The notes below the pieces were generated by a model, which made no database searches, was not told where the DNA came from, and saw only the letters and a program-made list of their open reading frames with translations. From assembly GCA_040755755.1 (NCBI GenBank), contig JBFLZW010000017.1, forward strand, positions 45,177-109,176: a stretch of DNA of 64,000 nt, written 5' to 3'. The translations under genes were made by a program, and so were the position numbers. The first letter of the stretch is position 1. Each line of letters begins with the position of its first letter. The DNA is from a bacterium. GTDB lineage: Bacteria; SZUA-182; DTGQ01. Shown here one piece after another: positions 38,401 to 64,000 of the stretch.

Positions 38401-38432
38401 GGTTTTTTCATGGAGATCGTTCGCTTTTCCAT
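35424..38432 (-). CDS. Secreted alkaline-phosphatase-superfamily / TPR protein
   Basis: 1002 residues from ATG 38432; GTG 38447 and ATG 38411 are alternatives. Signal peptide about 8-32. Residues about 40-430 form a sulfatase-like domain with metal sites LLITIDTLRADHLGCYG, DPH and LTADHGEGLGEHGE. The nucleophile position in PITLPSHVSIMTG is Thr, not the Cys/Ser of CxPSR, and the Arg is His, so a formylglycine sulfatase is unlikely; phosphohydrolase or phospho-transfer chemistry is likelier. Residues about 465-1000 hold about fifteen TPR units. It closes the run of minus-strand Pro-rich genes and may handle or scaffold their products (inference). Confidence 0.88.
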   Translation of the reverse strand: MEKRTISMKKPVFIFYLFFLLCSFLSPVSLSEAAAPQPGKPAYNLLLITIDTLRADHLGCYGYQDVNTPAIDSLASEGILFTQALTPVPITLPSHVSIMTGLYPVQHGIWNNGNFVLQQDVVTLAEVMKSNGYRTGACVGAFVLNSMFGLDQGFDTYNDSLPGKKRSSASPMDSERRAEEVTKSALEWLEKNHSQPFFLWVHYFDPHAIYFPPPPFRENYKHRLYDGEIAYTDKCLGDLLDGLKRMGATDKTVVVLTADHGEGLGEHGESTHTIFIYDATLRVPLIIKAPAGLMPAAKKMIKKVPQMVTTLDIFPTIMDLFSIQPDGVSLSGLPGKSLLPLVSGGCQALHQEVFCETLYPELNFGWSRIEGIRTGDWKYIKAPRSELYHLLKDPAENSNLLTGEPELAIDWEKKLGALKEQLRKEKRQPQIVQNDAALRRLEGLGYFRSTKKDPAQDSQKRPDPKDMIQLIDGIDRGLSYYYLDSYELAYNEFKKVIDANPENVSATFYLACVEERMGKYEQARDRFLHLLALQPGYLEARNHLGIVYHQLGQLDQALKEFKLALEEAKYADVYYNLGVVYKEMGLKDEAISAAKSAIELDPDYGDAINLLGEMALERGRLEEANKYLEEAYQYFTQVLKLEPNHLEAHNNLGVIYFHRSKMEDALREFSQAAAIDPNSAEAHNNLGSLFLAQGSYDKAKDAFQKAMKIKPGYSEALVNLGTAWFKEGNLEKAQDIYLQATRLFPNNQDAWNCLGLTHFTRKDYQGAIDHFETALKTGPARADVYISIGKTYLSLRSFDKSLAALKKAVEVDPHNKEAHLIMGHVLFDELGRAQEAVVEWEEARRLDPSDPVPLMNLAAVSFQAERYPEAIMLWKKALEIDPDSNDACLHLGTAYLKQNNIEEAIRSWQKILDRAPSHTEALINLGTAFYRKGDFEKAVEVWRKAEDVAPEDPKIHYNLALALMYRRNYRESLEELEEVLRLEPDNTQARMLMETARQQESY

Positions 38433-38474
38433 AGTCTTAAAGGACACCTTTTATTTTCTCACCCTGCCCGGTTG

Positions 38475-38579: not shown

Positions 38580-39317
38580 TTACAGAAGCACCAAACTAAA
38601 TACTCCCTCATCCAGTACCGGGATATTGGTACCGGTTACTGTATAATAGCCTGTCAGGGTAGTCGGGGAGGTAAGAACGCCATTTATGAGAAGGTCATAT
38701 CCAGTACCCAGAAATCCGCTTAAGGTAATGACGCTGTTGGCTTCTACCCCACTCACATTCACCAGAAAGTTCGCATACTTGCTCCCCGTGAGAATACAGG
38801 TGCCAACCGCGGTTCCCGTAAGTGGATCTACGGCTATATTCAGGGTCATCGGACCAGTGTGCCACAGGACAATATAGGCAATGTAAGTACTGGTCCACGT
38901 ACCCGTCCAGGTCCCTGTCTGGGCGGCTCTGCGCATGGGCAGGCCGGCAGATGAAGAAAGAGCGGGAGCAAGCGAGCTTGCTGCTGGAATTATGGAGGTC
39001 AAATACGGCACCTGGATTACCGGCCACGGGGAAACAGCCGATAGTGAATTCAAAGGCAAAAGGAAATTGAGAGGGTCGTAAAGTACAGGAAAGCTCAAAG
39101 GATCGAAACTGAAAAAGGAAGAACCTTCAGCAAAAGGAGTATACGGCAGGGGAGGAAGGAGAGCAGGAATCATTTGAGTAAAGGCATCCGACCTCAATCC
39201 GGTTAAGGGAGACAGGGTAACGCCGGAAAGCTGGGCATCGCCGGAAGATACACAGACCATCAGGGCGCAGACAAGAATAACGACAGATAATATGATGCAC
39301 CTTTTTCCTCTGATCAT
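38580..39317 (-). CDS. Exported Pro-rich protein with C-terminal GTW-x-GTWTST domain (paralogue A1)
   Basis: 245 residues; AAGGAT lies nine bases before the ATG. Signal peptide ends GDAQ. Residues 30-130 are a Pro/Leu/Phe/Ser-rich low-charge linker. Residues about 130-245 are a beta-rich domain that starts RRAAQTGTWTGTWTST and runs through YIVLWHTGPMTLNIAVDP, LTSPTTLTGYYTV and DEGVFSLVLL. The domain is nearly collinear in the two upstream neighbours. The pattern recalls calycin or lipocalin-type barrels, but I cannot assign it. 42 bp after the next paralogue; likely one operon. Confidence 0.85.
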   Translation of the reverse strand: MIRGKRCIILSVVILVCALMVCVSSGDAQLSGVTLSPLTGLRSDAFTQMIPALLPPLPYTPFAEGSSFFSFDPLSFPVLYDPLNFLLPLNSLSAVSPWPVIQVPYLTSIIPAASSLAPALSSSAGLPMRRAAQTGTWTGTWTSTYIAYIVLWHTGPMTLNIAVDPLTGTAVGTCILTGSKYANFLVNVSGVEANSVITLSGFLGTGYDLLINGVLTSPTTLTGYYTVTGTNIPVLDEGVFSLVLL

Positions 39318-39358
39318 AGCTGAATATCCTTAAACTTTGATGGAGTACATTAAGTGAC

Positions 39359-39910
39359 CTATAGTAAAACCGGAGACAGCAATGACAAATTGAATACTCC
39401 TTCATCCAGTACCGGGATATGGGTGCCTTCTACTACATAAAAGCCAGTCATCGTAGTCGGTGAGGTAAGAAGACAGGTCAAAACCATATTGTATCCGGTA
39501 GACAGAAGTCCGCTGACCGAAATAATGTCATTTACTTTCACCCCACTCACGTCAAAAGGAATATTTGCATACCGGCTCCCCGGGAGAACACAGGTACCGA
39601 CAACGGTTCCGAGCAATGGATCAACAACGATATTCAAAGTCATTGGCCCTGTATTCCAGAGGACGATAAAGGCGATATAGGTACTGGTCCAGGTGCCTAC
39701 CCATGTCCCTGACTGAGCAGCCGTACGGGTTGGAGCAGTCGCCACAGGTACTGGTGGAATAACAGGATAGCTGAAGGGAGCATACAGCAGAGCGGCAAAG
39801 GGGTCAAAAACGGGATAAACGGGATATTGAGCTTCACACAGAGGCAAACACATTATTGAGAAACAGGTAAAGATCAAAACAGATAACAAATACTTTTTCC
39901 CTCTAATCAT
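39359..39910 (-). CDS. Exported Pro-rich protein with GTW-x-GTWTST domain (paralogue A2)
   Basis: 183 residues from ATG 39910 (MIRGKKYLL), which matches the paralogue starts and has AAGGATG upstream; a longer frame to 39952 is less likely. Signal peptide ends CEAQ. A short YPVYPVFDPFAALLYAPF linker, then the domain RTAAQSGTWVGTWTST ... LLTSPTTMTGFYVV ... IPVLDEGVFNLSLLSPVLL. It is the shortest of the three because the linker is reduced. Confidence 0.85.
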   Translation of the reverse strand: MIRGKKYLLSVLIFTCFSIMCLPLCEAQYPVYPVFDPFAALLYAPFSYPVIPPVPVATAPTRTAAQSGTWVGTWTSTYIAFIVLWNTGPMTLNIVVDPLLGTVVGTCVLPGSRYANIPFDVSGVKVNDIISVSGLLSTGYNMVLTCLLTSPTTMTGFYVVEGTHIPVLDEGVFNLSLLSPVLL

Positions 39911-39979
39911 AATTGGATCATCCTTAAACGTTAAAAAATTCATGCTTCTCATAACCTGCCGGCTAACTATATGGCACAG

Positions 39980-40690
39980 CTATATAAGAACCGGAGCAAG
40001 CAGGCTGAGATCGAATATTCCCTCATCCACAAGATCGCCGGCAGCGGTTACCGCATAAAAACCGTTCATGGTGGTCGGTGAGGTGAGAACACAGGTTACA
40101 TCAATAAGAAATCCCAGCTTTGGAATCCCTTCCAGACTGATGATGTTATTCACCCTTACCCCGCTTACATCAAACGGAATATTGGTATATCTGCTTCCTG
40201 CGAGAAGAGCGGTACCGTAAACGGTTCCTAACAATGGATCTACAACAATATTCAAGGTCATTGGACCGGAGTGCCAGAGAACGATATAGGCAATCCAGGT
40301 ACTCGTCCAGGTGCCTACCCAGGTTCCTGTCTGGGCTGCTGTACGCGTCGGAGTAACAGCCGTAGTTGCAGGCAATATTGCCGGGGCAGGGAGTGGAGCA
40401 AACGGCAGCGTGGGGAGAGCCGGGTAGTAACTTGCACTGAGCAGAGGATCAAAAGGAGCGTAGAGCAGTGAGGCAAAAGGATCAAAAACAGGATAATAAC
40501 TGGCCGCTGTCCGGTATAATCCGGGAGAAAAAACATATGGATTAAAGAATCCCCCGTATCCAACGGCTGTACTGAGGGGAGGCAAAGTAGTGCCGGTATA
40601 CTGCGCATTACTCAAAGGTACACAAACCACAGACAGGGAAATTATAATCATAAAGACGGCTAGCACAATACCTCTTTTACCTTTGACCAT
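39980..40690 (-). CDS. Exported Pro-rich protein with GTW-x-GTWTST domain (paralogue A3)
   Basis: 236 residues, AAAGGAGG six bases before the ATG. Signal peptide ends SNAQ. The linker repeats YPVFDPFASLLYAPF, almost identical to A2. The domain reads RTAAQTGTWVGTWTST ... YIVLWHSGPMTLNIVVDPLLGTV ... VLTSPTTMNGFYAV ... DEGIFDLSLLAPVLI. First of the A group; a 17-bp hairpin separates it from the B group upstream. Confidence 0.85.
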   Translation of the reverse strand: MVKGKRGIVLAVFMIIISLSVVCVPLSNAQYTGTTLPPLSTAVGYGGFFNPYVFSPGLYRTAASYYPVFDPFASLLYAPFDPLLSASYYPALPTLPFAPLPAPAILPATTAVTPTRTAAQTGTWVGTWTSTWIAYIVLWHSGPMTLNIVVDPLLGTVYGTALLAGSRYTNIPFDVSGVRVNNIISLEGIPKLGFLIDVTCVLTSPTTMNGFYAVTAAGDLVDEGIFDLSLLAPVLI

Positions 40691-40800
40691 GATAAACCTC
40701 CTTTCTTACCAGGTATCTCTATACTCTCTCAAGAGCTCTTTTCATCAAATCTCTCATCTCTCTCAAAAACCCGTTCTGCCAAGCTAATTATGCATTGCGA

Positions 40801-40838
40801 AATTCCTCAAGATTCACCACAGTGAATCTTGAGGAATT
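40801..40838 (-). terminator. Perfect 17-bp hairpin between B-group and A-group genes
   Basis: AATTCCTCAAGATTCAC, loop of four, exact reverse complement to 40838, 16 bp past the stop of the 40.9 kb gene. Only a weak T-run (TTTCGC) follows on the minus strand. Likely a terminator or read-through attenuator that divides the cluster. Confidence 0.6.
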
Positions 40839-40853
40839 CAAGACACCTCCTGA

Positions 40854-41300
40854 TCAGATAAACAGATTCGATAATACCGCAAAAAGAAGCGGATTGGCTG
40901 TACTTAAAGCTGCCGGTGAATAAAGTGCCTGCGCATAGAGTGAGACAAGGCCTGAAACAATTGGACTTACTGAGGCAGTAGTTGTAGCCGCGGGTGGAGC
41001 TACCGTAGTAACGGAAACTACACCTGTTGTCGGATTGGTAATAATAATAGTAGCCGCAGGTGCCCTGGTTACCGGGATCGGCAGAGAGGCTGCCAGAACT
41101 GGATCAATATAGGGAGGAACGAATAAAGGTGGAGGAACGGGAGCATAGACCGGTGGAACCGGGGAAAAATATGGATAGGGGTAGAAAACAGGTACCTGGG
41201 ACATACATTTTGAGGAAAGAGAAAGAATACAAATAAAACAGAGACTAGCGATAGCTAATCTTAAAAGTAATTTAAGGCCTCTTACTTCTTGTTGTGACAT
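40854..41300 (-). CDS. Exported Pro/Tyr/Thr-rich protein (paralogue B1)
   Basis: 148 residues; GAGAGGG eight bases upstream. Signal peptide ends CMSQ. Mature N-part VFYPYPYFSPVPPVYAPVPP, then the motif TRAPAATIIITNPTTGVVSV, a Thr/Ala/Pro stretch and the ending ALSTANPLLFAVLSNLFI. The same ending (ANPLLFAYLSSL) occurs in B2 and B3. Nearly no charged residues in the mature protein. Unknown function; probably a self-assembling or membrane-associated structural protein. Confidence 0.82.
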   Translation of the reverse strand: MSQQEVRGLKLLLRLAIASLCFICILSLSSKCMSQVPVFYPYPYFSPVPPVYAPVPPPLFVPPYIDPVLAASLPIPVTRAPAATIIITNPTTGVVSVTTVAPPAATTTASVSPIVSGLVSLYAQALYSPAALSTANPLLFAVLSNLFI

Positions 41301-41316
41301 TGCTTAAACCCTCTCT

Positions 41317-41805
41317 CTAAATAAACAGCGATGATAAGTAGGCAAAAAGCAGCGGATTAGCGGTAGAAAGGGGAGCCGGTGCGTAGAGTGCGCCCGAATA
41401 AAGTACAGCCAGAATACTAAATAACGGTGAAGGAGCTGCCGTAGTAACTGTAGGTGTGGTAGTAGAAACAATTGTTGGTGCTGTAGTTGGAGTAACTACC
41501 GTTGGTGCTCCAATGACCACCGCCCCTGCCGTGGGACTTACCGCCGTGATTCCAGTGGAGAGAATAATCGTAGCCTGAGGTGCCCGTATATACGGCACCG
41601 GCGCGATCGGTACAGGAGGAAGCAGCGGATAGGGACTGTAACTCACGGGAGCAAATGGCGTAACTGGAAGAAATGGATCAAAATACGGGTTATAATATTG
41701 CCCCAGACCTTCCTGAAGAGCGATTCCCAAGATAAATATGCACACCAAGAAAAAGACTGCAAGCGATTTCTGAGCAAGGCTCATACAATAACCCTTCTTC
41801 TGCAT
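41317..41805 (-). CDS. Exported Pro/Tyr/Thr-rich protein (paralogue B2)
   Basis: 162 residues; AAGGAG nine bases upstream. Signal peptide ends EGLGQ. YYNPYFDPFLPVTPFAPV linker, then IRAPQATIILSTGITAVSP, a VVTPTTAPTIVSTTTPTV repeat, and the ending PLSTANPLLFAYLSSLFI. B2 and B3 share nearly identical central segments, which points to recent duplication. 17 bp upstream of B1. Confidence 0.83.
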   Translation of the reverse strand: MQKKGYCMSLAQKSLAVFFLVCIFILGIALQEGLGQYYNPYFDPFLPVTPFAPVSYSPYPLLPPVPIAPVPYIRAPQATIILSTGITAVSPTAGAVVIGAPTVVTPTTAPTIVSTTTPTVTTAAPSPLFSILAVLYSGALYAPAPLSTANPLLFAYLSSLFI

Positions 41806-41861
41806 AAACTTGATCTCCTTAGATTACGCACTTAGCAGGAATATAAGCTCTCTTTTGTCTG

Positions 41862-42347
41862 CTAAATGGTGAGCGATGATAAATAAGCAAAAAGCAGTGG
41901 GTTAGCCACAGAAAGAGGGCTTTCATAGAGAGCGCTTGCGTATAATATGCCCAGGATACTGATTAAAGGTGCAGGCGCTGCTGTGGTAACTGTCGGGACA
42001 GCAGTACTGACAACTGTCGGTACTGTAGTCGGCGTAACTACTGTCGGTGCACCAATGACCAGAGTTCCGGTAGTCGGACTTACCGCCGTAATTCCGGTTG
42101 AAAGGATAATGGTGGCATGAGGTGCTCTCATACCGGGCAGCGTTGGATATGGCACAGGGCAAAACTGGATCGAGGGGAAGAGAAGCGGTGGCGGCGGCGG
42201 AAGAAAAGGAGCATAGGTCAAGGGCATATAAGGAAGATATTGACAGGACCCCTTCTGAAGGCTGACTGCTAAGGTAAGAACACAAGATAACATAACAATT
42301 AGGAAAGATTTTCCAATGATACTCATAAAACAGCTCTTGTTGCGCAT
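41862..42347 (-). CDS. Exported Pro/Tyr/Thr-rich protein (paralogue B3)
   Basis: 161 residues from ATG 42347 (MRNKSCFMS), chosen for AGAGGAG nine bases upstream; an in-frame ATG at 42398 is unsupported. Signal peptide ends GSCQ. Linker YLPYMPLTYAPFLPPPPP, then MRAPHATIILSTGITAVSP, VVTPTTVPTVVSTAVPTV and SVANPLLFAYLSSLTI. Confidence 0.82.
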   Translation of the reverse strand: MRNKSCFMSIIGKSFLIVMLSCVLTLAVSLQKGSCQYLPYMPLTYAPFLPPPPPLLFPSIQFCPVPYPTLPGMRAPHATIILSTGITAVSPTTGTLVIGAPTVVTPTTVPTVVSTAVPTVTTAAPAPLISILGILYASALYESPLSVANPLLFAYLSSLTI

Positions 42348-42506
42348 AAATCTGTACTCCTCTACTTTTCGGAAAGTTATCTGAAGTGATACTTTCATTC
42401 AAACGTTTTCCAGCATCGGCAGTGTCCCTGTACTAATTTTGGACGACTAATGACCTGTCCCCAATTGTAGAGGGACACCACCTCAATTCTTCAGCCGATA
42501 CCGAAC

Positions 42507-42863
42507 TTATTCCGCAAGCGACAGGAACAGTATCAAAAATACCAGGGTGCTTGGTGTAAGAGACAATGTGCCAAGTGGTGCAGCCGCGGTGACGACCGGA
42601 GTTGTGGGAGCCAGAATAATAGTTGCCGCTGCAGTCCTGCTTGCTGCAGTTGGCAGTGCCAGGTATGGATCGAACAGCGGAGGAGCAAATACCGGAGCAG
42701 CCGGGAAATAAGGCACGGGAGGTACAAAGGCAAAGTATGGATCATAATACGGAGCAGGATAGGGAATAAATTGAGCGGAAACCTGTGTTGAAGTTAAAAA
42801 AATGACTGTTATGAGAAATATAATAAGGCAACTCATAAACCTTACTAAGCTAAACTGCTTCAT
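42507..42863 (-). CDS. Exported Pro/Tyr/Ala-rich protein (paralogue B4)
   Basis: 118 residues; AAGGAG before the ATG. Signal peptide ends QVSAQ, shared with B5. Linker FIPYPAPYYDPYFAFVPPV, then SRTAAATIILAPTTPVVTAA and the ending LTPSTLVFLILFLSLAE, a hydrophobic C-terminal helix with two acidic end residues or one (AE). Lacks the Thr-rich segment of B1-B3. Confidence 0.82.
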   Translation of the reverse strand: MKQFSLVRFMSCLIIFLITVIFLTSTQVSAQFIPYPAPYYDPYFAFVPPVPYFPAAPVFAPPLFDPYLALPTAASRTAAATIILAPTTPVVTAAAPLGTLSLTPSTLVFLILFLSLAE

Positions 42864-42983
42864 GTAAAAGATTCTCCTTAATCAAAGATTTTGTTAAAAG
42901 GAATAATCCTTTTATCAAGAGCCTGAGTAGTTACATTAAAAGTTAAACATAAACAGGGTAAAACATACGATACTTTCCATGTC

Positions 42984-43355
42984 CTATTCTTCCAGGGACA
43001 GATAGAGTATTAAAAACACAAGGGTGGTTGGTGTCAGAGCCAGCGTTCCAAGAGGTGCAGCAGCAGTGACTACCGGTGCTGCGGGTGTTAGAATTATCGT
43101 TGCTGCCGCAGCACGGCTGATAGGAGTTGGCAGAGCCGCCAGATATGGATCGAACAGGGGAACTGTAGGATAGAGAAGAGGAGGTGTAGGATACAATGAA
43201 ATCGGAGGCAATGGAAGTGGACTATAACCATAAAACGGGTCATAGTATGGCGATGGAAGAATCTGAGCAGAAACCTGGGTTGAAACAAGTAAAGCAGTAA
43301 CCATGAAGAAAATAATAAGACACGTTACATTTTTTCGTGAGCTAAATTTCCTCAT
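42984..43355 (-). CDS. Exported Pro/Tyr/Ala-rich protein (paralogue B5, first in cluster)
   Basis: 123 residues; AAGGGAG nine bases upstream. Signal peptide ends QVSAQ. Linker ILPSPYYDPFYGYSPLPLPP, then SRAAAATIILTPAAPVVTAA and LTPTTLVFLILYLSLEE. Close pair with B4. First gene after a large gene-free interval, so the cluster promoter should lie just upstream, on the minus strand above 43355. Confidence 0.83.
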   Translation of the reverse strand: MRKFSSRKNVTCLIIFFMVTALLVSTQVSAQILPSPYYDPFYGYSPLPLPPISLYPTPPLLYPTVPLFDPYLAALPTPISRAAAATIILTPAAPVVTAAAPLGTLALTPTTLVFLILYLSLEE

Positions 43356-55161: not shown

Positions 55162-55764
55162 ATGAAGAAAAATCTAACTGCGATTTTCTGTATGACCTTC
55201 CTCTTTTGCCTCATGATCATTGCTACCACCGCCAAGGCTACCAAGATAGAATATGTGCCGACGAATAATGGAGGCGGTAATTATACCCTCGATTATACCG
55301 TTACCAATGATACCCTGTCCGATCCCATTGAATGGATATCAATCTATTTTGGTCAAACCAGCGATGGATTGAATTTTGCTAATACGGGATTGTTCAGTAA
55401 TTTTGTGCCTGATGATGCGGGAGTTTCTCAACCTGCAGGGTGGTCGTCATACTCTTTTGAACCTTCTGCAGTAGACATCCCCGGTCAGTTCAATTCGGAT
55501 ATCGATACTTCACCGGGTATCGCACCTGGCAGTTGGCTTTCAGGATTCCAAGTTACCTTTGATATGGATGCTTCGGGGTCCTATGATCAGTTATATTTTG
55601 AAGTCGGGAATTTTGACGCCAGTCATAATTATCAGATCCTGGGTAATGGATACACTCAACTCGCCGGGCCTGCACCTATCCCCGAACCATCGACCATAAT
55701 TCTGGTAGTGCTTGGTCTTGCGACTTTGGGATTAGCGATGAAAAGAACATCAGTAAGTAATTGA
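55162..55764 (+). CDS. PEP-CTERM sorting-domain protein
   Basis: 200 residues; AAGGAG seven bases upstream. Signal peptide (LFCLMIIATTAKA), then a beta-rich domain of about 140 residues (NYTLDYTVTNDTLSDPIEW ... GFQVTFDMDASGSYDQLYF). The C-terminus is a complete PEP-CTERM signal: PIPEPSTIILVVLGLATLGL followed by AMKRTSVSN, with PEP at about 174-176, one TM helix and a basic tail. The exosortase at 13-15 kb is the expected processing enzyme. It should end up in the extracellular matrix or outer surface. Confidence 0.93.
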   Translation: MKKNLTAIFCMTFLFCLMIIATTAKATKIEYVPTNNGGGNYTLDYTVTNDTLSDPIEWISIYFGQTSDGLNFANTGLFSNFVPDDAGVSQPAGWSSYSFEPSAVDIPGQFNSDIDTSPGIAPGSWLSGFQVTFDMDASGSYDQLYFEVGNFDASHNYQILGNGYTQLAGPAPIPEPSTIILVVLGLATLGLAMKRTSVSN

Positions 55765-55898: not shown

Positions 55899-58376
55899 AT
55901 GAACCATAGGGAAGGACTTTTTGCACTCAAGGTTAACCTGTTAGTTTTCTTTTTTGTATTGATGCTGTCTTCATTAGCGACAGCATCTCTCGTCCCGCCA
56001 GAGGTAAATGTTATGCCGGATGGAGATACAGATACCTCGGCATATACCTGGGTAGGAAATGCTTTGACTATCTGGGGAAATGTAGTTTGGGGCAGTTCCA
56101 CTTCCGGCACTTATGCATGGGATATTAATAATGACGGCACGGCTGACTATACCGGTACCGTTACCAATGCCAAGGATATAGCCTGTACCCATACTTATGC
56201 TACCTCCGGGCTTTATGAAGCCAAGCTGACCGTCACCGACGGCAATGGAGAATCTGACAGCGCCGTTGTAAGAATCAGGGTTTTACCCTCCGAGACTAAA
56301 GAAGCCAAGATCAATCTGGCCATTGAAAAGGGGTTGAAATGGCTGTACCTGAAACAGGGAAGTAATGGCTCCATTTACGATCTGAATTCCTACAGTTCAT
56401 CGGGAGCTGAAACAGCCGCGGCTGTTTTGGCCTTTGAAAACAAGGGCCATAAGCCCTGCACTCAGGACCAGGACCTTGACGGCGATGTAGATGCAGCCGA
56501 CCGGGCAATCTGGGAAAAAGACCGTATCTATGCCAAAACGGTGCATGCAGGGCTTGACTATATCATTTCCACCCTGACGGCAGTAGGTGTAGGTGCTCCT
56601 TATGATAATAACGGCAATGGGGTATGGATCGCTGACAATTATTATCCCTCTTCGGGATACAGGGGACCATACAAAATCGGTATGTACATGATGGCTCTAG
56701 TCGGGGCTGGCAGTGTAGCCAGCGGGGCACCGAATCTGGTAGCCACCACCGGACCGAGTGGTGTTATTGGCAAGACCTACCGCACGATCGTCGAGGATAT
56801 GGTCGATTACTGCGATTATTCACAGTATCACTCTACCTATGGTGGATGGAGATATGGTCCTGGTTATGGGCCTGACAACTCGGCCTGCCAATGGCCGGCC
56901 ATTGGCATGGAGGCGGCTGAATTTGGCTGGGGAGTTCCTATCCGCCAGGCAATTAAAGACCTCAATCAAAACTGGACGAATTATAGCCAGAATGCTTCTA
57001 ACGGGCGTTTTGGATATACCTCGGAAAGTGCTCAGGGAACAGGTGGATATGGTGCCTGTACCGGGTCCGGCATTTGTCAGTTATCCTTCCAGGGAAAAGT
57101 CAAGGATGATCCCAGGATCATTCTTGCCGGGAATTTCTTGAAGAATAATCCTGGTCTCTACAATCAAGGCTTCAGTGACGATAGGGCTTTCCTGTACTAC
57201 ATGTATGCCGTAGCCAAGGGTGCCCGGATCGCTAAAATCGATACCAACGGCGATGGCAAGGGTGATACCTATTCCGAGATTCAATTCCTGGGATCAGCTC
57301 CGGGCTGGGACTGGTACGATGCCTACAGCACCTGGCTCATTACTTACCAGAATCCAGGCGGATTTTGGGATGATAGTTTCGACCATACTTACCGTGTGTT
57401 GGAGACCTCCTGGGCAGTGGAAATCCTGACCAAAAACGTTTTCACTCTGCGGCCAATAGCCAAATTGACTGCTACCCCCAATCCCACCCCTGCTAATTCA
57501 GCCATTACCTTTGACCTGAGCGGTTCATTCCATCAGGATAGTTCCAAGAACCTGGTTGACTGGTGGATCGATGTCGATAATAATGGAACGTTTGATCTCA
57601 GCGGCCATTTCCCGGTAACAACCGCCAGTTTTGCCGCCGGATATCCTGATACCGGCTCGAATTACGCAGTTACCGCAAGACTCAGAGTAAGCGACAATTC
57701 CACGCCGGTTGAATTTGGCGAGGATGCCCTGACTATCAATATCACTACCGGCAATGTCCCGCCGGTTGCAGATCCGGGCGGGCCATATAATGGAGTTATC
57801 GGACAGCCGATCACCTTTGACGGTTCCAACTCCTATGATGCCAATGAAGGCGCCCCGCTCAATGATTCAATCGTAAGCTGGGAATGGGACCTGGATGGCG
57901 ATGGTCAATATGATGATGCTTCCGGTGAAATTGTGACCAAGACCTGGAACACACCCTATTCTGGAAATATTGGTCTGAAAGTCAAAGATTCATTCGGCCT
58001 GTCCAGTACAGCCGTAGCCTACACCAAGGTTGTGGTAGTCGATCTCTGGCCGGAAAATTATACTATCGTAAGCACCAGGAGAATAAACCGGTATGTTTAT
58101 GAGTATGAATATAAGTTCGACATGAGAAACCGGGGGACAGGAGATGCTTTCAATGTCCAGTGCAGCATTGACCAAAAACCGCCTCAGATGACCGTTGTCG
58201 ATGGTCAGGTGAGTTTTGGTAACGTGACGGCCGGAGCGGTTGTAACCTCTGTTGACTCTTTCAAATATCAACACGATCGCCGTTATCCGATGGCTGATAT
58301 TCAAATTCGATGGAAACTCGAATATGATGATGCTGCTGGAAGTCATATAGTCTTCCTGGATTTTCCATTGCGCTGA
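55899..58376 (+). CDS. Secreted PKD / alpha-alpha-toroid / CARDB-like protein
   Basis: 825 residues from ATG 55899 (AGGAGG and AAAGG upstream); a 46-residue longer frame has no support. Signal peptide ends ATAS. Domains: PKD about 60-130; a prenyltransferase/squalene-cyclase-like toroid about 135-520 (AIEKGLKWLYLKQGSNGSIYD, YHSTYGGWRYGPGYGPDNS, SGICQLSF); within it a dockerin-like Ca site DQDLDGDVDAADRAIW near 190; two PKD domains about 525-740; a CARDB-like end. No catalytic DXDD. Likely a structural or binding protein, co-transcribed with the PEP-CTERM gene and ended by the 58.45 kb terminator. Confidence 0.85.
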   Translation: MNHREGLFALKVNLLVFFFVLMLSSLATASLVPPEVNVMPDGDTDTSAYTWVGNALTIWGNVVWGSSTSGTYAWDINNDGTADYTGTVTNAKDIACTHTYATSGLYEAKLTVTDGNGESDSAVVRIRVLPSETKEAKINLAIEKGLKWLYLKQGSNGSIYDLNSYSSSGAETAAAVLAFENKGHKPCTQDQDLDGDVDAADRAIWEKDRIYAKTVHAGLDYIISTLTAVGVGAPYDNNGNGVWIADNYYPSSGYRGPYKIGMYMMALVGAGSVASGAPNLVATTGPSGVIGKTYRTIVEDMVDYCDYSQYHSTYGGWRYGPGYGPDNSACQWPAIGMEAAEFGWGVPIRQAIKDLNQNWTNYSQNASNGRFGYTSESAQGTGGYGACTGSGICQLSFQGKVKDDPRIILAGNFLKNNPGLYNQGFSDDRAFLYYMYAVAKGARIAKIDTNGDGKGDTYSEIQFLGSAPGWDWYDAYSTWLITYQNPGGFWDDSFDHTYRVLETSWAVEILTKNVFTLRPIAKLTATPNPTPANSAITFDLSGSFHQDSSKNLVDWWIDVDNNGTFDLSGHFPVTTASFAAGYPDTGSNYAVTARLRVSDNSTPVEFGEDALTINITTGNVPPVADPGGPYNGVIGQPITFDGSNSYDANEGAPLNDSIVSWEWDLDGDGQYDDASGEIVTKTWNTPYSGNIGLKVKDSFGLSSTAVAYTKVVVVDLWPENYTIVSTRRINRYVYEYEYKFDMRNRGTGDAFNVQCSIDQKPPQMTVVDGQVSFGNVTAGAVVTSVDSFKYQHDRRYPMADIQIRWKLEYDDAAGSHIVFLDFPLR

Positions 58377-58444
58377 TTTTGTACTTGATGTACCTGATTG
58401 GTTTAATAACTCTGGTAACATGAGTTAGAACCGAATAAGAGGAT

Positions 58445-58485
58445 AAACGGGGTATTATCTTGCGGGATATACCCCGTTTTCTTTT
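58445..58485 (+). terminator. Intrinsic terminator after the toroid gene
   Basis: AAACGGGGTAT (58445-58455) and ATACCCCGTTT (58469-58479) form a perfect 11-bp stem, followed by TTCTTTT. It ends the PEP-CTERM/toroid transcription unit. Confidence 0.85.
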
Positions 58486-58541
58486 ACTCCAGCTCTGTAC
58501 CGGCTATAGTGCCGAGTGAATTTGGGGAGGAACAAAGTTAC

Positions 58542-59576
58542 ATGGTTCACAGAAAAATCCTGATTCTGTTTTTGGGATCAATGGTTGCAGCGGCCCTTTT
58601 ATTCCTGGTTTTCAGCCCCCTGAGTATAAAAAGTGTAACCCGGCCTGTTTCCTGCCGGAATGAACCACAGCAGAGTTTGAAACCAGGTATCCTCCAGAAT
58701 GAGAGTTCACCTGGTAACCATGACAATCCCCATGAGAAAAGGTGGGAGGGTACAGTATCATTACGCCAGGATTTTATCCTTACAGCACCTCAGGGTGGAG
58801 AAGTGGTATCTCTTGCCAAAGCAGGGGATAGGGTGACGGCAGGGGTAATCCTTGCTGAAATAGCGAACGAACAGAGTCGGAAAGCCGCTCATGAACAGCA
58901 AGGCGCACTGGACCGGGAAATATCCATGGCTGATCAGAGTATAGAAATTGCCCGACAGGATATCACCAATCTTAATCGGGAAATTGACCAGCTCAAAGAT
59001 ACTGTCAAAGATAAGGAATATTCTTTCGCCGATGCGGAAAGGGAATACCGGCAGGAGCTGATGGGTGAGGCGGCCTTCATTGAAAAAAAAGATGAGCTTG
59101 ACCGTCTGAAAAGAAATCTCGAATCACGGGAATCCATGCTCAGGTGCAAGTACGAAAATATTGCTTCTCTTCAAAAAGAGATAATCAAACTCCAGTCATC
59201 TGCCAAACAAATATCTCAAAACCTTATCATCAAGGCACCCTGTGACGGGGTGGTAGGAGAGGTTCTTGCCAGGGTTGGGGAAAAGGTGAACGAGCAGGCT
59301 ATGCTGATGAAACTGACCCCCTGCAATGTAGTTTCCCTCAAGTTACAAGGGGAATCCCTCCTTGGCCTTGACGGGAAAAAGATACTTCTAACCATGCATA
59401 ACGCCCCTGATAAAAAATTTTCAGGCATCATGAAAATAGCAGACTTCTCCTTCCTGCCTGGACAGAGGGGAGAGAGGGCAGATGCAGAGGTAATTCTGGA
59501 TCAGGGGCAGGCCGACCTTTCCAGGGGATTCAGGGGAAAGGTTGTGGTATCGCTGCAGGGTTCGGGAAATTTATAA
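58542..59576 (+). CDS. HlyD-type periplasmic adaptor (membrane fusion protein)
   Basis: 344 residues from ATG 58542, with GGGAGGA ten bases upstream. One N-terminal TM helix. The lipoyl half-motifs GGEVVSLAKAGDRVTAGVILAEI (about 85-107) and CDGVVGEVLARVGEKVNEQAMLMKL (about 235-260) flank a long coiled-coil hairpin (about 115-225). A beta-barrel part follows. Adaptors bridge inner-membrane pumps and outer-membrane channels, but no ABC, RND or TolC partner is near. A decayed copy of its 3' half follows. Confidence 0.85.
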   Translation: MVHRKILILFLGSMVAAALLFLVFSPLSIKSVTRPVSCRNEPQQSLKPGILQNESSPGNHDNPHEKRWEGTVSLRQDFILTAPQGGEVVSLAKAGDRVTAGVILAEIANEQSRKAAHEQQGALDREISMADQSIEIARQDITNLNREIDQLKDTVKDKEYSFADAEREYRQELMGEAAFIEKKDELDRLKRNLESRESMLRCKYENIASLQKEIIKLQSSAKQISQNLIIKAPCDGVVGEVLARVGEKVNEQAMLMKLTPCNVVSLKLQGESLLGLDGKKILLTMHNAPDKKFSGIMKIADFSFLPGQRGERADAEVILDQGQADLSRGFRGKVVVSLQGSGNL

Positions 59577-59623
59577 AATTACGGTCGCTCAGTCACCATG
59601 TTAAGTTAAGCAACGGACAATTA

Positions 59624-59650
59624 AAATCCCCCTTTTCTCAAGGGGGATTT
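59624..59650. repeat. AAATCCCCCTT / AAGGGGGATTT hairpin
   Basis: Perfect 11-bp arms with a five-base loop, followed by taggggggc. Lies between the HlyD-type gene and its decayed duplicate; belongs to a common dispersed palindrome type. Confidence 0.65.
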
Positions 59651-59699
59651 AGGGGGGCGAGCTACTACCCGAATCCCCACGCAATATCCCTGATCAATT

Positions 59700-60110
59700 G
59701 CAGGTACAAAACATTGCCTCTCTTCAAAAAAAGATGAAGAAGCTCCATTCATCTGCCGAACAAATAGGTAAGGATCTTTTTTACGGTACTCTGCGACGGG
59801 ATAGTTGGAAGAGGTTCTTGCCAAGGTTGGAGAAAAGGTGAATGAGCAGGCCATTCTGATGAAACCGACCCCCTGCAATGCAGATTCCCTCCAATTGTCA
59901 GGAACATCCCTCCCTTGGCCTTGATGGAAAAAGAGATACTTCTAACCATGTACAACTCTTCAGCCAATAACTTTTCAGGCACTATTAAAATAAGAGATTT
60001 CCCCTTCGATCTGGTCAGACGGAGGAGGGCAGAGAGGGAGGTTCCCGGACCGGGGGCAATCTGATCTTTTTTATGGATTCAGAAGAGAGATTATGGTATT
60101 GTTGACCTGA
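59700..60110 (+). pseudogene. Decayed tandem duplicate of the HlyD-type gene 3' half
   Basis: Sequence parallels 59145-59576: aacattgcctctcttcaaaa, gttcttgccaaggttggaga, aaaaggtgaatgagcaggcc, gaccccctgcaatgcagatt and ggccttgatggaaaaagaga align with the functional copy. Several indels and stops break all frames, and even the post-stop sequence (tcagtcattgtcatt) aligns to the original 3' flank. An old duplication that has lost function. Confidence 0.8.
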
Positions 60111-60262
60111 TTAAGGAAAATTTATTGTAAATTATAATTGGTCAGTCATTGTCATTCCCTGACTCCTGAAGGGAGCGAGGGGGACCGTACAGCTTTCTTA
60201 CAAAAGGTTGAGCAGTTGTTACCAAAATTTATTAAACTACGAACAGGGAGATATCGCCAGCC

Positions 60263-61093
60263 ATGAAACCAAACTATGCTCCATTACGCCACAAGATAGT
60301 GTATTTTGCACTCACCGGCCTTTCTCTCAGCATTCTTTTACTTTTGCCGCCACAAGGGTATGGAGAATCTCAGGATACGAAAGGTCCAAATTCTCCGGAT
60401 AGTTTCTCAAAACCTTCATCAGTGCCTTCTTCAGGAGAACCTGCCCCGGCACCTTCTTTGCCTCCTTCGGGGAATACTCCCATTGAGCAAACTGGCCCGG
60501 ATGAATACCGGATTGGCAAGCTGATGTTAAATAAGAAAACCCGGGAAATTGCTATCACCGGGCAGGTCAATATGCAAAGCGGCCTGGTTGAATATCTGGC
60601 CTGCTGCTCGGCGGAAGCTGGAAAACTCCACGAGAGTGTTCTGAAACTCGATACAAAACCTTCCGATGTTCAGGTAGCTCTTCTTCTGCTCGGTGCTAAA
60701 GCGGAGAACAACTTGAAGTTTCAGGGTGATCCGAATCCTCCCAAGGGAGACCCCCTGGAGATTTGGGTAGAGTGGGAATTGCAGGATAAAACGAAAAAAA
60801 AGGTTCGCGGGGAGGAACTGGTGTACAATCAGGCGGAAAAAAAGCCAATGGGAAAAACCACCTGGGCTTTTACCGGATCATTTATCCGGGAGGGCAGGTT
60901 CGTTGCAGACATGGAGGGATCGATCATCGCTACCTTCCGGGACCCGGCGGCTCTTATCAATAATTCTTTACCGGTTGGAGCGGACGATACTCAGATTTTC
61001 AGCAATGAGAATCTTCTCCCCCCGGTGGGAACAAAGGTGACCTTGTTCATCAAACCTGTCCCGAATCACTCGCCGGAAAAGCATAGCCTGTAA
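60263..61093 (+). CDS. Exported YdjY-domain protein
   Basis: 276 residues. Signal or anchor segment (LTGLSLSILLLLPPQGYG), then a 45-residue Pro/Ser-rich linker. The YdjY-like core is IGKLMLNKKTREIAITGQVN, SGLVEYLACCSAEAGKLHES and VQVALLLLGAKAENN, about residues 80-150. The C-terminal domain (TWAFTGSFIREGRFVADMEG) is beta-rich. YdjY domains occur in bacterial secreted proteins of unknown role. AGGGAG lies 12 bases upstream. 44 bp before the second toroid gene, probably one operon. Confidence 0.8.
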   Translation: MKPNYAPLRHKIVYFALTGLSLSILLLLPPQGYGESQDTKGPNSPDSFSKPSSVPSSGEPAPAPSLPPSGNTPIEQTGPDEYRIGKLMLNKKTREIAITGQVNMQSGLVEYLACCSAEAGKLHESVLKLDTKPSDVQVALLLLGAKAENNLKFQGDPNPPKGDPLEIWVEWELQDKTKKKVRGEELVYNQAEKKPMGKTTWAFTGSFIREGRFVADMEGSIIATFRDPAALINNSLPVGADDTQIFSNENLLPPVGTKVTLFIKPVPNHSPEKHSL

Positions 61094-61137
61094 GGAGAGG
61101 AACTTGAAAAAATAATCCACAAGAGGAGGATATAATC

Positions 61138-62421
61138 ATGGTAAATTATCTCAGGAAACACAATGCTTGGCTTTGCCTTCAATCTTTCGTAATGGCCGCT
61201 TTTCTTATCTGCATTGCTCATCCTCTGCCTGGCTGGGGAGCACCGGACAAATTGAACAAGGGGGAAAAGCCGCAGGAGGCTGTTGTCTCTCAAAATCTGA
61301 TCAAGGCTGACCAGCCGACTAATCTTTCCTTGAGGAAAGAAGCCCAGCACTCAATCGACATGGGACTTGCCTGGTTAAAGAACAAGCAGAATCCTGATGG
61401 TTCATGGTCCAATCCGGATTACCCGGCCATAACAGCTCTGGTAGCTCTCTCTTTCGTGCGCGATCCTTCCGCTTCCCTGAGCTACCAGCAATATCCGGCC
61501 TTTCTCCAGAATGCCTTTAAATTTATCCTGAGCAAGGTACAGCCGGACGGGGGAATCTACACCCCATCAAAAGGGCTTGCCAATTACAATACTGCAATTT
61601 GCATTTCGGCTCTTACAGCTACGGGAAATCCGGCTTTTGTTCCAGTCATTCAGAAGGCCAGGAATTACCTGATTTCCCTCCAGATGGACGAGGGGGAAAA
61701 GGGAGTTGCCGACCAGACCTATGATGGAGGAATCGGCTACGGAGGGAAGGAAAAACACTCTGATTTATCCAATATGCACCTTGCCCTTGAAGCCCTGTAT
61801 GTGAGCAGACAGCTTGAGATCGATAAGGCGAAAACCCTTGGCTCTGCAAAGGTTGAATCGAAGGAACTGGACTATCAGGCAGCCCTGCGGTTTATCGAAC
61901 GATGCCAGAACAATCCCAAAACCAATGATCAATCCTGGGCAAGCGGTGATCCGGATAACCTCGGAGGGTTTATTTATTTTCCCGGAAGCAGCAAGGCTGA
62001 TGAGCAAAAACTTCCCGATGGGAAAACCGCTCTGCGGTCATATGGCAGCATGACCTATGCAGGTCTTTTGAGTTTCATCTATGTCAACCTTGAAAAGGAT
62101 GACCCACGGGTGCAGGCAGCCTATGACTGGATCAGAAAGCACTATACTGTGGATGAGAATCCGGGCATGGGCCAGCAGGGATTGTTTTATAACTACCATA
62201 CCATGGCCAAGGCACTGGCTGTTTACGGAGCTCAGGAAATTCAGGTGGAAGGGAGAAAGGAAAAAGTCAACTGGCGGAAAGAGCTTATCGGCAAGATTAT
62301 CGGGCTGCAAAAGGGTGAAGGATATTGGGTCAATGCGGAAGGCAGATGGTGGGAAAACGATCCTGTCCTGGCGACATCATACGCACTGCTATCCATGGAG
62401 ATCGCCCAGGCAGGGCTTTAA
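61138..62421 (+). CDS. Secreted prenyltransferase/squalene-cyclase-like toroid protein
   Basis: 427 residues; AGGAGG eight bases upstream. Signal peptide ends GWGA. At least five QW-like helical repeats: AQHSIDMGLAWLKNKQNPDG, FILSKVQPDGGIY, NYLISLQMDEGEKG, YDGGIGYGG and LIGKIIGLQKGEGYW. The alpha/alpha toroid resembles terpene cyclases, but no DXDD or zinc-ligand set is seen, so it is probably a binding or structural fold. Planctomycete-type secreted relatives exist. Same class as the toroid at 55.9 kb. Confidence 0.82.
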   Translation: MVNYLRKHNAWLCLQSFVMAAFLICIAHPLPGWGAPDKLNKGEKPQEAVVSQNLIKADQPTNLSLRKEAQHSIDMGLAWLKNKQNPDGSWSNPDYPAITALVALSFVRDPSASLSYQQYPAFLQNAFKFILSKVQPDGGIYTPSKGLANYNTAICISALTATGNPAFVPVIQKARNYLISLQMDEGEKGVADQTYDGGIGYGGKEKHSDLSNMHLALEALYVSRQLEIDKAKTLGSAKVESKELDYQAALRFIERCQNNPKTNDQSWASGDPDNLGGFIYFPGSSKADEQKLPDGKTALRSYGSMTYAGLLSFIYVNLEKDDPRVQAAYDWIRKHYTVDENPGMGQQGLFYNYHTMAKALAVYGAQEIQVEGRKEKVNWRKELIGKIIGLQKGEGYWVNAEGRWWENDPVLATSYALLSMEIAQAGL

Positions 62422-62445
62422 ACGGAATATGGAGTTAATTTATCT

Positions 62446-63303
62446 ATGAGCATGCTTATGAACACTCTTATCGAACCTCATATCCACATGTATTCCCGGA
62501 CCACGGATGACTATCAGGCCATGCATGCAGCGGGCATCCGGGTCGTGGTCGAACCCTCCTTCTGGCTGGGATGCGACCGCCGGTACGCCGGCACGTTTTT
62601 CGATTATTTCCGGCTGATCCTTGAGTTTGAAACTCTCAGGGCAGCCCGCTACGGGATTGATCACTATGCATGCATATCGGTAAACCCCAAAGAGGCGGAA
62701 AACAGGGGCCTGGTCGATGAGGTTCTGGCCGGTATCGGTGAGTATTTCGATCATCCCCGCTGTGTCGGTATCGGGGAAATCGGGCTCAACAACCTTACCG
62801 AAAATGAAATCTATGCCTTTCGCCGGCAACTGCTGATGGCCGAGGAGCGAAAACTTCCGGTGGTCATTCATTTGCCCCACTTTCGAAAACCTGAAGGGGC
62901 CCGGATTATTGTCGATATAATCCGGGCCGAAGGTGTTGATCAAAAGCGTATTGAGATTGACCACAATACCGAAGAAACCATGCCCATCACCCGGAAGACC
63001 GAATGCTTTACCGGCTTGACCGTATATCCGTATTCCAAGCTGAATCCTGAACGGGTATCCGGAATCGTCAGGGAGTATGGAGCCGAGCGGATGATAATCG
63101 ACGGCAGCGCAGACTGGGGTGTCTCAGATCCTTTGGCTCTGCCAAAAACGATAGAATATCTGCGCCGGGATGGCCATGCCGAGGAATCTCTCCGGCTTCT
63201 GTTCCATGACAATGCAGACCAGTTCTATGGACAGACCCCGCGATGGAAGCCTGATTACCATATTGAACCAGTACCCGTTTCAGAATACCAGCGGCAGCCC
63301 TGA
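62446..63303 (+). CDS. eboB: TatD-family metal hydrolase EboB
   Basis: 285 residues. TIM-barrel metal hydrolase: N-terminal LIEPHIHMYSRTTDDYQAMH (HxH ligands), GIRVVVEPSFWLG, CVGIGEIGLNN, LPVVIHLPHFRK, IEIDHNTEETMP and MIIDGSADWGVSDPL. This set, with the early TTDDY and the late SADWGVSDPL, is that of the EboB branch and not of housekeeping TatD. The ebo genes (eboA-F) serve an uncharacterised prenyl or cyclitol metabolite pathway in bacteria and some algae. The UbiA gene 100 bp downstream is in the expected eboB-eboC order. Confidence 0.82.
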   Translation: MSMLMNTLIEPHIHMYSRTTDDYQAMHAAGIRVVVEPSFWLGCDRRYAGTFFDYFRLILEFETLRAARYGIDHYACISVNPKEAENRGLVDEVLAGIGEYFDHPRCVGIGEIGLNNLTENEIYAFRRQLLMAEERKLPVVIHLPHFRKPEGARIIVDIIRAEGVDQKRIEIDHNTEETMPITRKTECFTGLTVYPYSKLNPERVSGIVREYGAERMIIDGSADWGVSDPLALPKTIEYLRRDGHAEESLRLLFHDNADQFYGQTPRWKPDYHIEPVPVSEYQRQP

Positions 63304-63402
63304 CCCTGTGACTCAAGAGACCAGAACAATGAGGATGAATCTCACGTTTTCCTCATGTATCTTGAGTGTCTCTGTGATTGCCTTTATTTTTTCTCCATGC
63401 GA

Positions 63403-64000
63403 ATGAGCAGCAACAATGGAATACTGCAGGATAAACCCGCAAACCGAAGAGAGGTTTTTCACGGCTTTTTGGAGCTGATACGTCTGCCTAATCTGCTTAC
63501 CGTGCCTGGAGACATCCTGGCAGGATTTACCCTGGCCGGTGTTTCTCCCGGCAATCTCCCGTGCATTGTGCCTGTCCTCCTGATCTCTCTCTTTCTGTAT
63601 ACCTGCGGGTTGATTCTCAATGACTATGTTGATCGGGAAACCGACCGGGCAGAGCGTCCCGGTCGGCCAATACCGTCAGGGAGAGTCCAGCCGGGGACGG
63701 CACTGACCATTGCTCTGGTCCTGCTTGTTCTGGCCATCTTCCTGAGCTTGATCACTGGCCGGGAGAATGTGCCGCTGATTGGTTGTGCAGCCTCCTCTTT
63801 CCATCCCGGATTCTCTCTTATCGGGATTACCGGAGGGCTGGCTGCCCTTATCCTCCTGTACAACTGCTGTGTGCGCACTATCCCCCTTGCAGGTTTTGGG
63901 GTCATGGGACTGTGCCGGGGAGCAAACCTCCTTCTGGGTGCCAGCATTGGGGCCAGGCCCTTTACGGCTGCCGTATTCATCGGTGCCGGTCTTGAGGCTT
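63403..64000 (+). CDS. eboC: UbiA-type prenyltransferase EboC (3' end outside window)
   Basis: 199 residues to the window edge, no stop. Starts ATG 63403 (or 63397, two codons earlier). UbiA fold with N-terminal LIRLPNLLTVPGDILAGFTL and the first Asp-rich site NDYVDRETDRAERPGRP (Asn73, Asp74, Asp77), which binds Mg2+-prenyl diphosphate. At least four TM helices seen. In the ebo operon EboC is predicted to prenylate the cyclitol-like product of EboD. No clear ribosome site. eboD, E and F would lie beyond 64000. Confidence 0.85.
   Translation, partial: MSSNNGILQDKPANRREVFHGFLELIRLPNLLTVPGDILAGFTLAGVSPGNLPCIVPVLLISLFLYTCGLILNDYVDRETDRAERPGRPIPSGRVQPGTALTIALVLLVLAIFLSLITGRENVPLIGCAASSFHPGFSLIGITGGLAALILLYNCCVRTIPLAGFGVMGLCRGANLLLGASIGARPFTAAVFIGAGLEA

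Follow-up and report, generated by a model that had tools for sequence, protein, structure and literature searches.

An exported alpha/alpha toroid protein (TOR) is a recurrent partner of ebo genes in distantly related bacteria, where it stands beside three different ebo gene sets. We encountered it, with an exported YdjY-domain protein, ahead of an ebo cluster at the end of the window, which is the whole stretch of 64,000 nucleotides that was analysed (C17:45177-109176, contig JBFLZW010000017.1). The ebo genes constitute a widespread bacterial pathway of unknown product, present in many phyla and in algal plastids. The combination of the toroid with ebo genes is very probably a real module. 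To the whole explanation, in which an ebo cluster of the order B-C-F-D-E is probably co-transcribed with the YdjY and toroid genes and the two exported proteins receive or process a prenylated cyclitol, we assign a probability of roughly 0.4. The ebo clusters, including those without eboA, are already known, and no earlier description of the link to YdjY, toroid or PKD proteins, or of the B-C-F-D-E order, was found among the open papers of PubMed Central.

The window genome (G000, 5.26 Mb in 88 contigs) continues for 4,320 bases 3' of the window edge, to the end of contig C17 at 113496, and in this part eboC is completed and eboF, eboD and eboE follow. The features are given below in the numbering of the window, and export was judged by eye from the N-termini.

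55162..55764, + strand: exported protein with a C-terminal PEP-CTERM sorting signal (PF07589, 24.6 bits)
55899..58376, + strand (from ATG; the ORF opens with TTG at 55761): large exported protein; PKD domains, internal alpha/alpha toroid
58509..59576, + strand: HlyD-type membrane fusion protein (HlyD_2, 29.6 bits; blastp to L177, 29%, E 2e-19)
60263..61093, + strand: exported YdjY-domain protein (NF040466, 157.3 bits, cut-off 50)
61138..62421, + strand: exported alpha/alpha toroid (SQHop_cyclase_C, 42.2 bits; no DxDD)
62446..63303, + strand: eboB, TatD-like metal-dependent hydrolase (Pfam TatD_DNase, 44.7 bits; an alternative later start at ~62464 is possible)
63355..64000 in the window, full gene to 64389, + strand: eboC, UbiA-type prenyltransferase (PF01040)
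64394-65689, beyond the edge, + strand: eboF, phosphodiesterase/pyrophosphatase fold (PF01663, 141.8 bits)
65704-66915, beyond the edge, + strand: eboD (PRK06203, 503 bits, cut-off 333)
about 66893-67996, beyond the edge, + strand: eboE, TIM-barrel protein (NCBIfam NF035939, 364.1 bits, cut-off 250)

The cluster at the window end almost certainly belongs to the ebo pathway. A sequence-only reading of the window had recognised an EboB-like TatD hydrolase followed by a UbiA prenyltransferase, and this was borne out by the TatD_DNase and PF01040 matches and by identities of 39-85% (over the alignment) between the hydrolase and nine other EboB proteins. In both alignment and tree the protein falls with the EboB of annotated ebo clusters, as a TatD-like hydrolase of its own clade, and its closest solved structure is 3guw (E 2.6e-40). 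The first 215 codons of eboC lie inside the window. The complete protein of 344 amino acids has the EboC model as its best full-length family match; it scored 130.7 bits with this model (NCBI cut-off 250) and 132 with the SCO3242 model (cut-off 260), both below the cut-off and the top two among 17 models. The prenyltransferase motif NDxxDxxxD is visible in its sequence. EboD is a sugar-phosphate cyclase distinct from AroB, with 207 bits against the AroB model (under the cut-off of 305), and the reference EboD of Aureibacter (L011) behaves alike (PRK06203, 531 bits; AroB, 237 bits). After eboE comes a frame on the opposite strand, which encodes the tail part of an Rpn-type nuclease.

The same reading had proposed a look past position 64000 for eboD, eboE and eboF. 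All three were found there in a different order, with F before D and E, and the window genome thus holds a near-complete set, B-C-F-D-E, without EboA. Its description of the site as the left edge of an ebo cluster is right as far as the left part of the cluster is concerned; the transcription unit itself probably starts farther left, at the YdjY gene (60263), since the gaps are short (44 bases from the YdjY gene to the toroid gene, 24 bases from there to eboB) and all of these genes are co-directional. A promoter and terminator scan of 58300-64000 yielded 6 promoter-like sites versus 6.0 in shuffles and 10 terminator-like sites versus 6.2, from which no boundary could be drawn.

As compared with the eboABCDEF operon in the sections considered here of Yurchenko et al. 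2016 (PMC5133447) and Klicki et al. 2018 (PMC6282210), the window has the EboB, C, D, E and F families in common, as co-directional genes of one cluster, but it is without EboA, and the exported YdjY and toroid genes precede the ebo genes. Section 3.2 of PMC5133447 does not list B-C-F-D-E among its gene orders. That eboA is not recognisable, as the sequence-only reading had it, proved correct for the whole genome: EboA gave no match at E<=10 in the window genome or in 8 relatives (a nine-genome sample of the class). Its absence does not exclude membership, because clusters without EboA are counted as ebo in the sections considered of the 2016 paper (PMC5133447). According to section 3.2 of this paper (Yurchenko et al. 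2016, PMC5133447), a small protein, EboG, replaces EboA in Deinococcus and others. An EboG profile was built here from eight sequences, and its equation with the published EboG rests on position and taxa; it gave no match at E<=1 in the window genome or in G002, which represents another genus of the same family. In G002, the order YdjY-toroid-B-C-F-D runs to a contig end, and a second piece opens inside eboD and continues with eboE (L176, L177). No gene is hidden in this gap, because both contig ends fall inside eboD. G001 (same genus as the window) and G003 (same family) contained neither EboE nor the toroid.

The relatives of the window EboB were collected by an alignment scan, which gave 591 proteins. 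The best 80 were kept; they are those most like the window EboB, not a random sample, and many of their loci are cut by contig ends. With our own profiles and in the stretch read, EboA was found in 26/80 and EboG in 12/80 of these loci. Neither was present in the 22 loci nearest to the window EboB (L017-L038; in the stretch read, many cut by contig ends), several of which show EboB with no other ebo gene nearby. The complete B-C-F-D-E order was found in L018 (a Desulfobacterales MAG), L020 (Verrucomicrobia), L022 (Lentisphaerota) and L031 (Phycisphaerales), and its first part in L027, L028 and L037. In the EboB tree, the window EboB groups with a Planctomycetota MAG and L018, inside the clade of L017-L038. 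Since the B-C-F-D-E loci and the nearest EboB clade are without EboA and EboG, and from the placement in the EboB tree, the window cluster adds to the A and G kinds a third one, which it has in common with PVC bacteria. The eboG variant, in the sections considered of PMC5133447, is also without EboA, and the toroid-linked clusters of Geobacter relatives are of this eboG kind; by contrast, EboA and EboG are both missing from the window, G002 and L017-L038 in the stretch read, many of these loci being cut by contig ends. For the three Planctomycetes examined in 2016, the sections considered of PMC5133447 give no ebo clustering. A methyltransferase-type gene adjoins the B-C-F-D-E genes in two PVC genomes, at L022:15990-16985 (O-methyltransferase by Pfam) and L031:8924-9982 (alike by eye).

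The secreted toroid ahead of eboB, also seen in the sequence-only reading, was confirmed by the SQHop_cyclase_C match of 42.2 bits and by its hydrophobic N-terminus, judged by eye. Three of the best 80 EboB loci carry a toroid gene with a YdjY gene directly upstream, namely L069 and L089 (Geobacter) and L076 (Thiobacillaceae). Altogether the toroid is linked to ebo genes in 13 genomes with 14 loci (G000, G002, G135, G137 with two loci, G139, G274, G287, G295, G443, G447, G504, G529 and G547). The YdjY gene stands directly upstream of the toroid gene in 13/14 of these loci, and the 14th (L163) ends at a contig end there. The toroid occurs with EboG in G135, G139, G295, G504, G447, G274 and G529, with EboA in G137 (which also has EboG) and G547, and with neither in G000, G002, G287 and G443. 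Most of the toroid loci have eboD; in G287 and G274 a myo-inositol-3-phosphate synthase is present instead (PF07994 and PF01658 far above cut-off). A search for the toroid in plasmids gave no match.

In a test independent of linkage, the toroid, EboB and EboE were searched for in 395 genomes of the phylum to which G139 (the Geobacter genome that carries L089) belongs. The toroid was detected in 11 (E<=1e-30), EboB in 8 and EboE in 8 genomes; these counts, like those of the other genome searches, are lower bounds, because the first pass scores only some candidates. All of the 8 genomes with EboB carried the toroid, as compared with 3/387 of the others (Fisher p 1.2e-14, relatedness ignored). 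The two genes are neighbours in 7/8 of the EboB genomes, and in G529 they lie on two contig ends. In the family of G137, EboB was found in 3/117 genomes and the toroid in 2/117, both of them among the three with EboB. In the class of the window, EboE and the toroid coincide in the same 2/9 genomes.

The EboB tree was labelled with 14 toroid-linked rows from 12 genomes against 76 others. The linked rows fall into separate clades, with 6 changes, and a single clade was rejected (p-AU 4.6e-41). Twelve near-copies had been dropped, G447 entered the tree twice (under two names) and so did G287 (once as a partial frame). The EboA-linked EboB copies of G137 (L076_459, L164_460) were unlabelled though their clusters contain the toroid; they occupy yet another clade, and with them labelled as toroid-linked more changes would be expected. 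In the toroid tree of 43 rows, the 13 linked rows were found in one clade (support 99/95), inside which only L102 and L135, the latter on a 3.2 kb contig, were not labelled as linked. L178 (G547) is in neither tree. Because the linked toroids form one clade, while the linked EboB proteins are scattered and belong to different ebo types, one toroid lineage is joined to several ebo lineages.

These results bear on the possibility that the window holds a plain ebo cluster, with the YdjY and toroid genes as chance neighbours that have an unrelated job. Clusters of the same order without an adjoining toroid do exist (L018, L020, L022, L031), and in PVC bacteria members of the toroid family are frequent and stand away from ebo genes. 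From the EboB-bearing genomes, 38/46 (not all PVC) match the toroid at E<=1e-6, mostly with 200-370 bits, away from ebo, and these unlinked toroids have no ebo gene and no constant neighbour nearby. The fold family is therefore not specific to ebo, being common and mostly unlinked in PVC genomes with EboB. No toroid was found in the genomes of L017 and L018, which have the nearest relatives of the window EboB outside its family, and G140 has EboB and EboG with no toroid. The YdjY-toroid pair also occurs without EboB, in G178 and G531. Half of the EboE genomes among the 395 (4/8) are without the toroid, and in these four (L152-L155) an eboD-eboE pair accounts for all of the ebo genes in the stretch read. 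The toroid is accessory and not part of the ebo core, as it is missing with L017 and L018 and its family is common and unlinked in PVC genomes. However, the linkage recurs in 13 genomes that represent several phyla and involves three ebo gene sets, and the toroid is present in 8/8 EboB genomes versus 3/387 others. This makes chance neighbourhood very unlikely, and we rejected this reading as largely refuted by recurrence.

The sequence-only reading had placed the secreted toroid "instead of" eboA, and this did not hold. The window genome and G002 are without both EboA and EboG, and the toroid is helical, as is the TPR-like structure proposed for EboA in the sections considered of PMC6282210. 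However, the toroid adjoins a true eboA in L164, L178 and L179 (Thiobacillaceae and a relative) and eboG in the Geobacter-type clusters (L069, L089, L156, L159-L163), and its N-terminus is of the export type, whereas EboA is described as probably cytosolic in section 3.4.4 of PMC5133447. Co-occurrence in one cluster rules out the toroid as a substitute for EboA, and it is extremely improbable that the toroid takes the place of EboA as a missing sixth component. A single cluster of G137 (L179, L076) carries both an EboA-EboB pair and an EboG-EboB pair. EboA and EboG are described as mutually exclusive in the sections considered of PMC5133447.

Across its 43 relatives, the toroid keeps D137, Y150, D209, N212, Y302, S304, D322, R324, N341, W379, R380, N399, R403 and E406. 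Y150, D209, N341, R380, N399, R403 and E406 are present in at least 40/43 and D137 in 38/43, and this conservation suggests that the toroid may have a pocket with a job. The structural model, built from four sequences, is mainly helical and of low confidence (pLDDT 59); its fold matches are MmpH, AprG, squalene-hopene cyclases, MstE and C3d, with MmpH and AprG ranking above the cyclases. The low-confidence model and the residues would give no choice between a lipid and a glycan as the ligand. For YdjY, the model reached pLDDT 64, with no solved relative and no fold match at E<0.001.

The toroid has a weak sequence match to squalene-hopene cyclase (SQHop_cyclase_C, 42.2 bits; 2sqc, E 5e-10) and weakly resembles the C-terminal domain of this enzyme and MstE in fold; unlike these proteins, it is exported, has about 390-430 residues and is without DxDD. 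DxDD is the motif of class II terpene cyclases, and it is absent from all 13 ebo-linked toroids and from L135; the toroid as an ordinary squalene cyclase was therefore rejected. The toroid might still be an exported enzyme of the class II terpene cyclase type, which would cyclise the prenyl chain added by EboC as MstE does with a prenylated aromatic acid. Such an enzyme would account for the 2sqc match and for MstE among the fold matches, but the missing motif and the higher rank of the glycan hydrolase MmpH and AprG (model pLDDT 59) render it improbable.

Further exported proteins accompany the module. PEP-CTERM proteins were found near the toroid-ebo locus in 7/13 genomes by a motif scan of the loci. 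The internal toroid of the large PKD protein is related to the small toroid (profile match 96.6%, E 5e-10), and such a part was found at the toroid-ebo locus in 10/13 genomes versus 0/77 other EboB loci, in stretches of unequal length. The large PKD-toroid proteins reach about 3,300 residues, and for two of the three genomes without one (G137, G529) the contigs are too short for a verdict. The genes for the PEP-CTERM, PKD-toroid and HlyD-related proteins stand downstream of eboE in G002, the HlyD relative beyond the PKD protein, and upstream of the YdjY gene in the window; these genes are kept together though rearranged. Elsewhere in the window, eight small ORFs at 38580-43355 (- strand) have export-type N-termini and several are P/Y-rich (by eye), and a sulfatase-TPR protein at 35424-38447 adjoins this run. 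A surface protein with HYR and DUF11 domains at 3-2110 (- strand) is 27% identical, in an alignment of 461 residues, to the large protein encoded immediately after eboE in L018.

A cyclitol may also be suggested by clusters of another type. The Ino1 clusters (Streptomyces, haloarchaea; SCO3242-type prenyltransferase; L015, L041, L048, L056) have EboB, EboF, TIM barrels and mostly an EboC-like UbiA protein in common with the window, but they have myo-inositol-3-phosphate synthase and no eboD, whereas the window has eboD. Two clusters of the Ino1 type, L158 and L159, also carry YdjY and the toroid. In eboD-less, ebo-like clusters the synthase was found at L158:4609-5874, L159:17422-18684, L015:1296-2483 and L016:950-2251 and in L041, L048 and L056; the hosts are Streptomyces, Gemmatirosa, haloarchaea and members of the phylum of Geobacter, and xylose-isomerase-like TIM barrels are often present. 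It looks as if the synthase replaces the cyclase step in these clusters, and their TIM barrels are of the inosose type, with weak matches to the IolE and IolO models. With inositol-phosphate synthase standing for EboD in related clusters, two of them with the toroid, this exchange fits a cyclitol product and points to one. Ebo-like clusters with EboB, EboC, EboF and TIM barrels and without EboA were also seen in Nitrososphaerota (L043, L054, L055, L094) and haloarchaea (L013, L041, L048, L051).

A prenylated cyclitol has been argued as the ebo product in sections 3.4, 3.4.4 and 3.7 of PMC5133447, and for Ubi-297, a prenyltransferase of the EboC type, heterologous production and a study of its substrates have been described (PMC9235831, in the part considered here). 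In ebo mutants of Nostoc, the scytonemin monomer stays cytoplasmic instead of reaching the periplasm, and a lipid carrier was proposed (Klicki et al. 2018, PMC6282210, in the sections considered). From gene content, order, co-direction, export-type N-termini (by eye) and recurrent linkage, which were seen directly here, the following course may be proposed. EboD would cyclise a sugar phosphate to a cyclitol, which the TIM-barrel protein EboE and the metallohydrolase EboB would modify; EboC would add a prenyl chain in the inner membrane, and EboF would take off a phosphate. The prenylated cyclitol would then be shown on the outer face and may there be bound or processed by the YdjY-toroid pair, and the large PKD-toroid surface protein would use it or be served by it. 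This mechanism as stated, with its chemical steps, an exported product and the part assigned to the toroids, is tentative and somewhat unlikely to be right throughout.

Alternatively, the toroids may be active on glycans or bind them, and the modified cyclitol that ebo would supply may be destined for a matrix or surface polysaccharide whose construction involves the PKD and PEP-CTERM proteins. MmpH and AprG as the best fold matches, the polar residues kept in at least 40/43 toroids (Y150, D209, N341, R380, N399, R403, E406), the PEP-CTERM proteins near 7/13 toroid-ebo loci and a gene for a family 9 glycosyltransferase upstream in the window would all agree with this, but the toroid model is of low confidence and EboC points to a lipid product, and we regard the glycan role as unlikely. 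Extending the prenylated cyclitol reading, the lipid could be an extracytoplasmic carrier or anchor, which the YdjY-toroid pair would hand, or whose bound cargo it would hand, to the giant PKD-toroid surface proteins, in what would be a new system for secretion or surface anchoring, put together on several occasions around different ebo sets. This extension is improbable.

The exported partners would fit an ebo product that acts outside the cytoplasm, and they hint that part of the work of the ebo pathway happens outside the cell. Being conserved, they offer a way, apart from the scytonemin case, to approach the place of action of the ebo product and its partners there, and the Geobacter strains carrying the module are organisms in which this can be tested.
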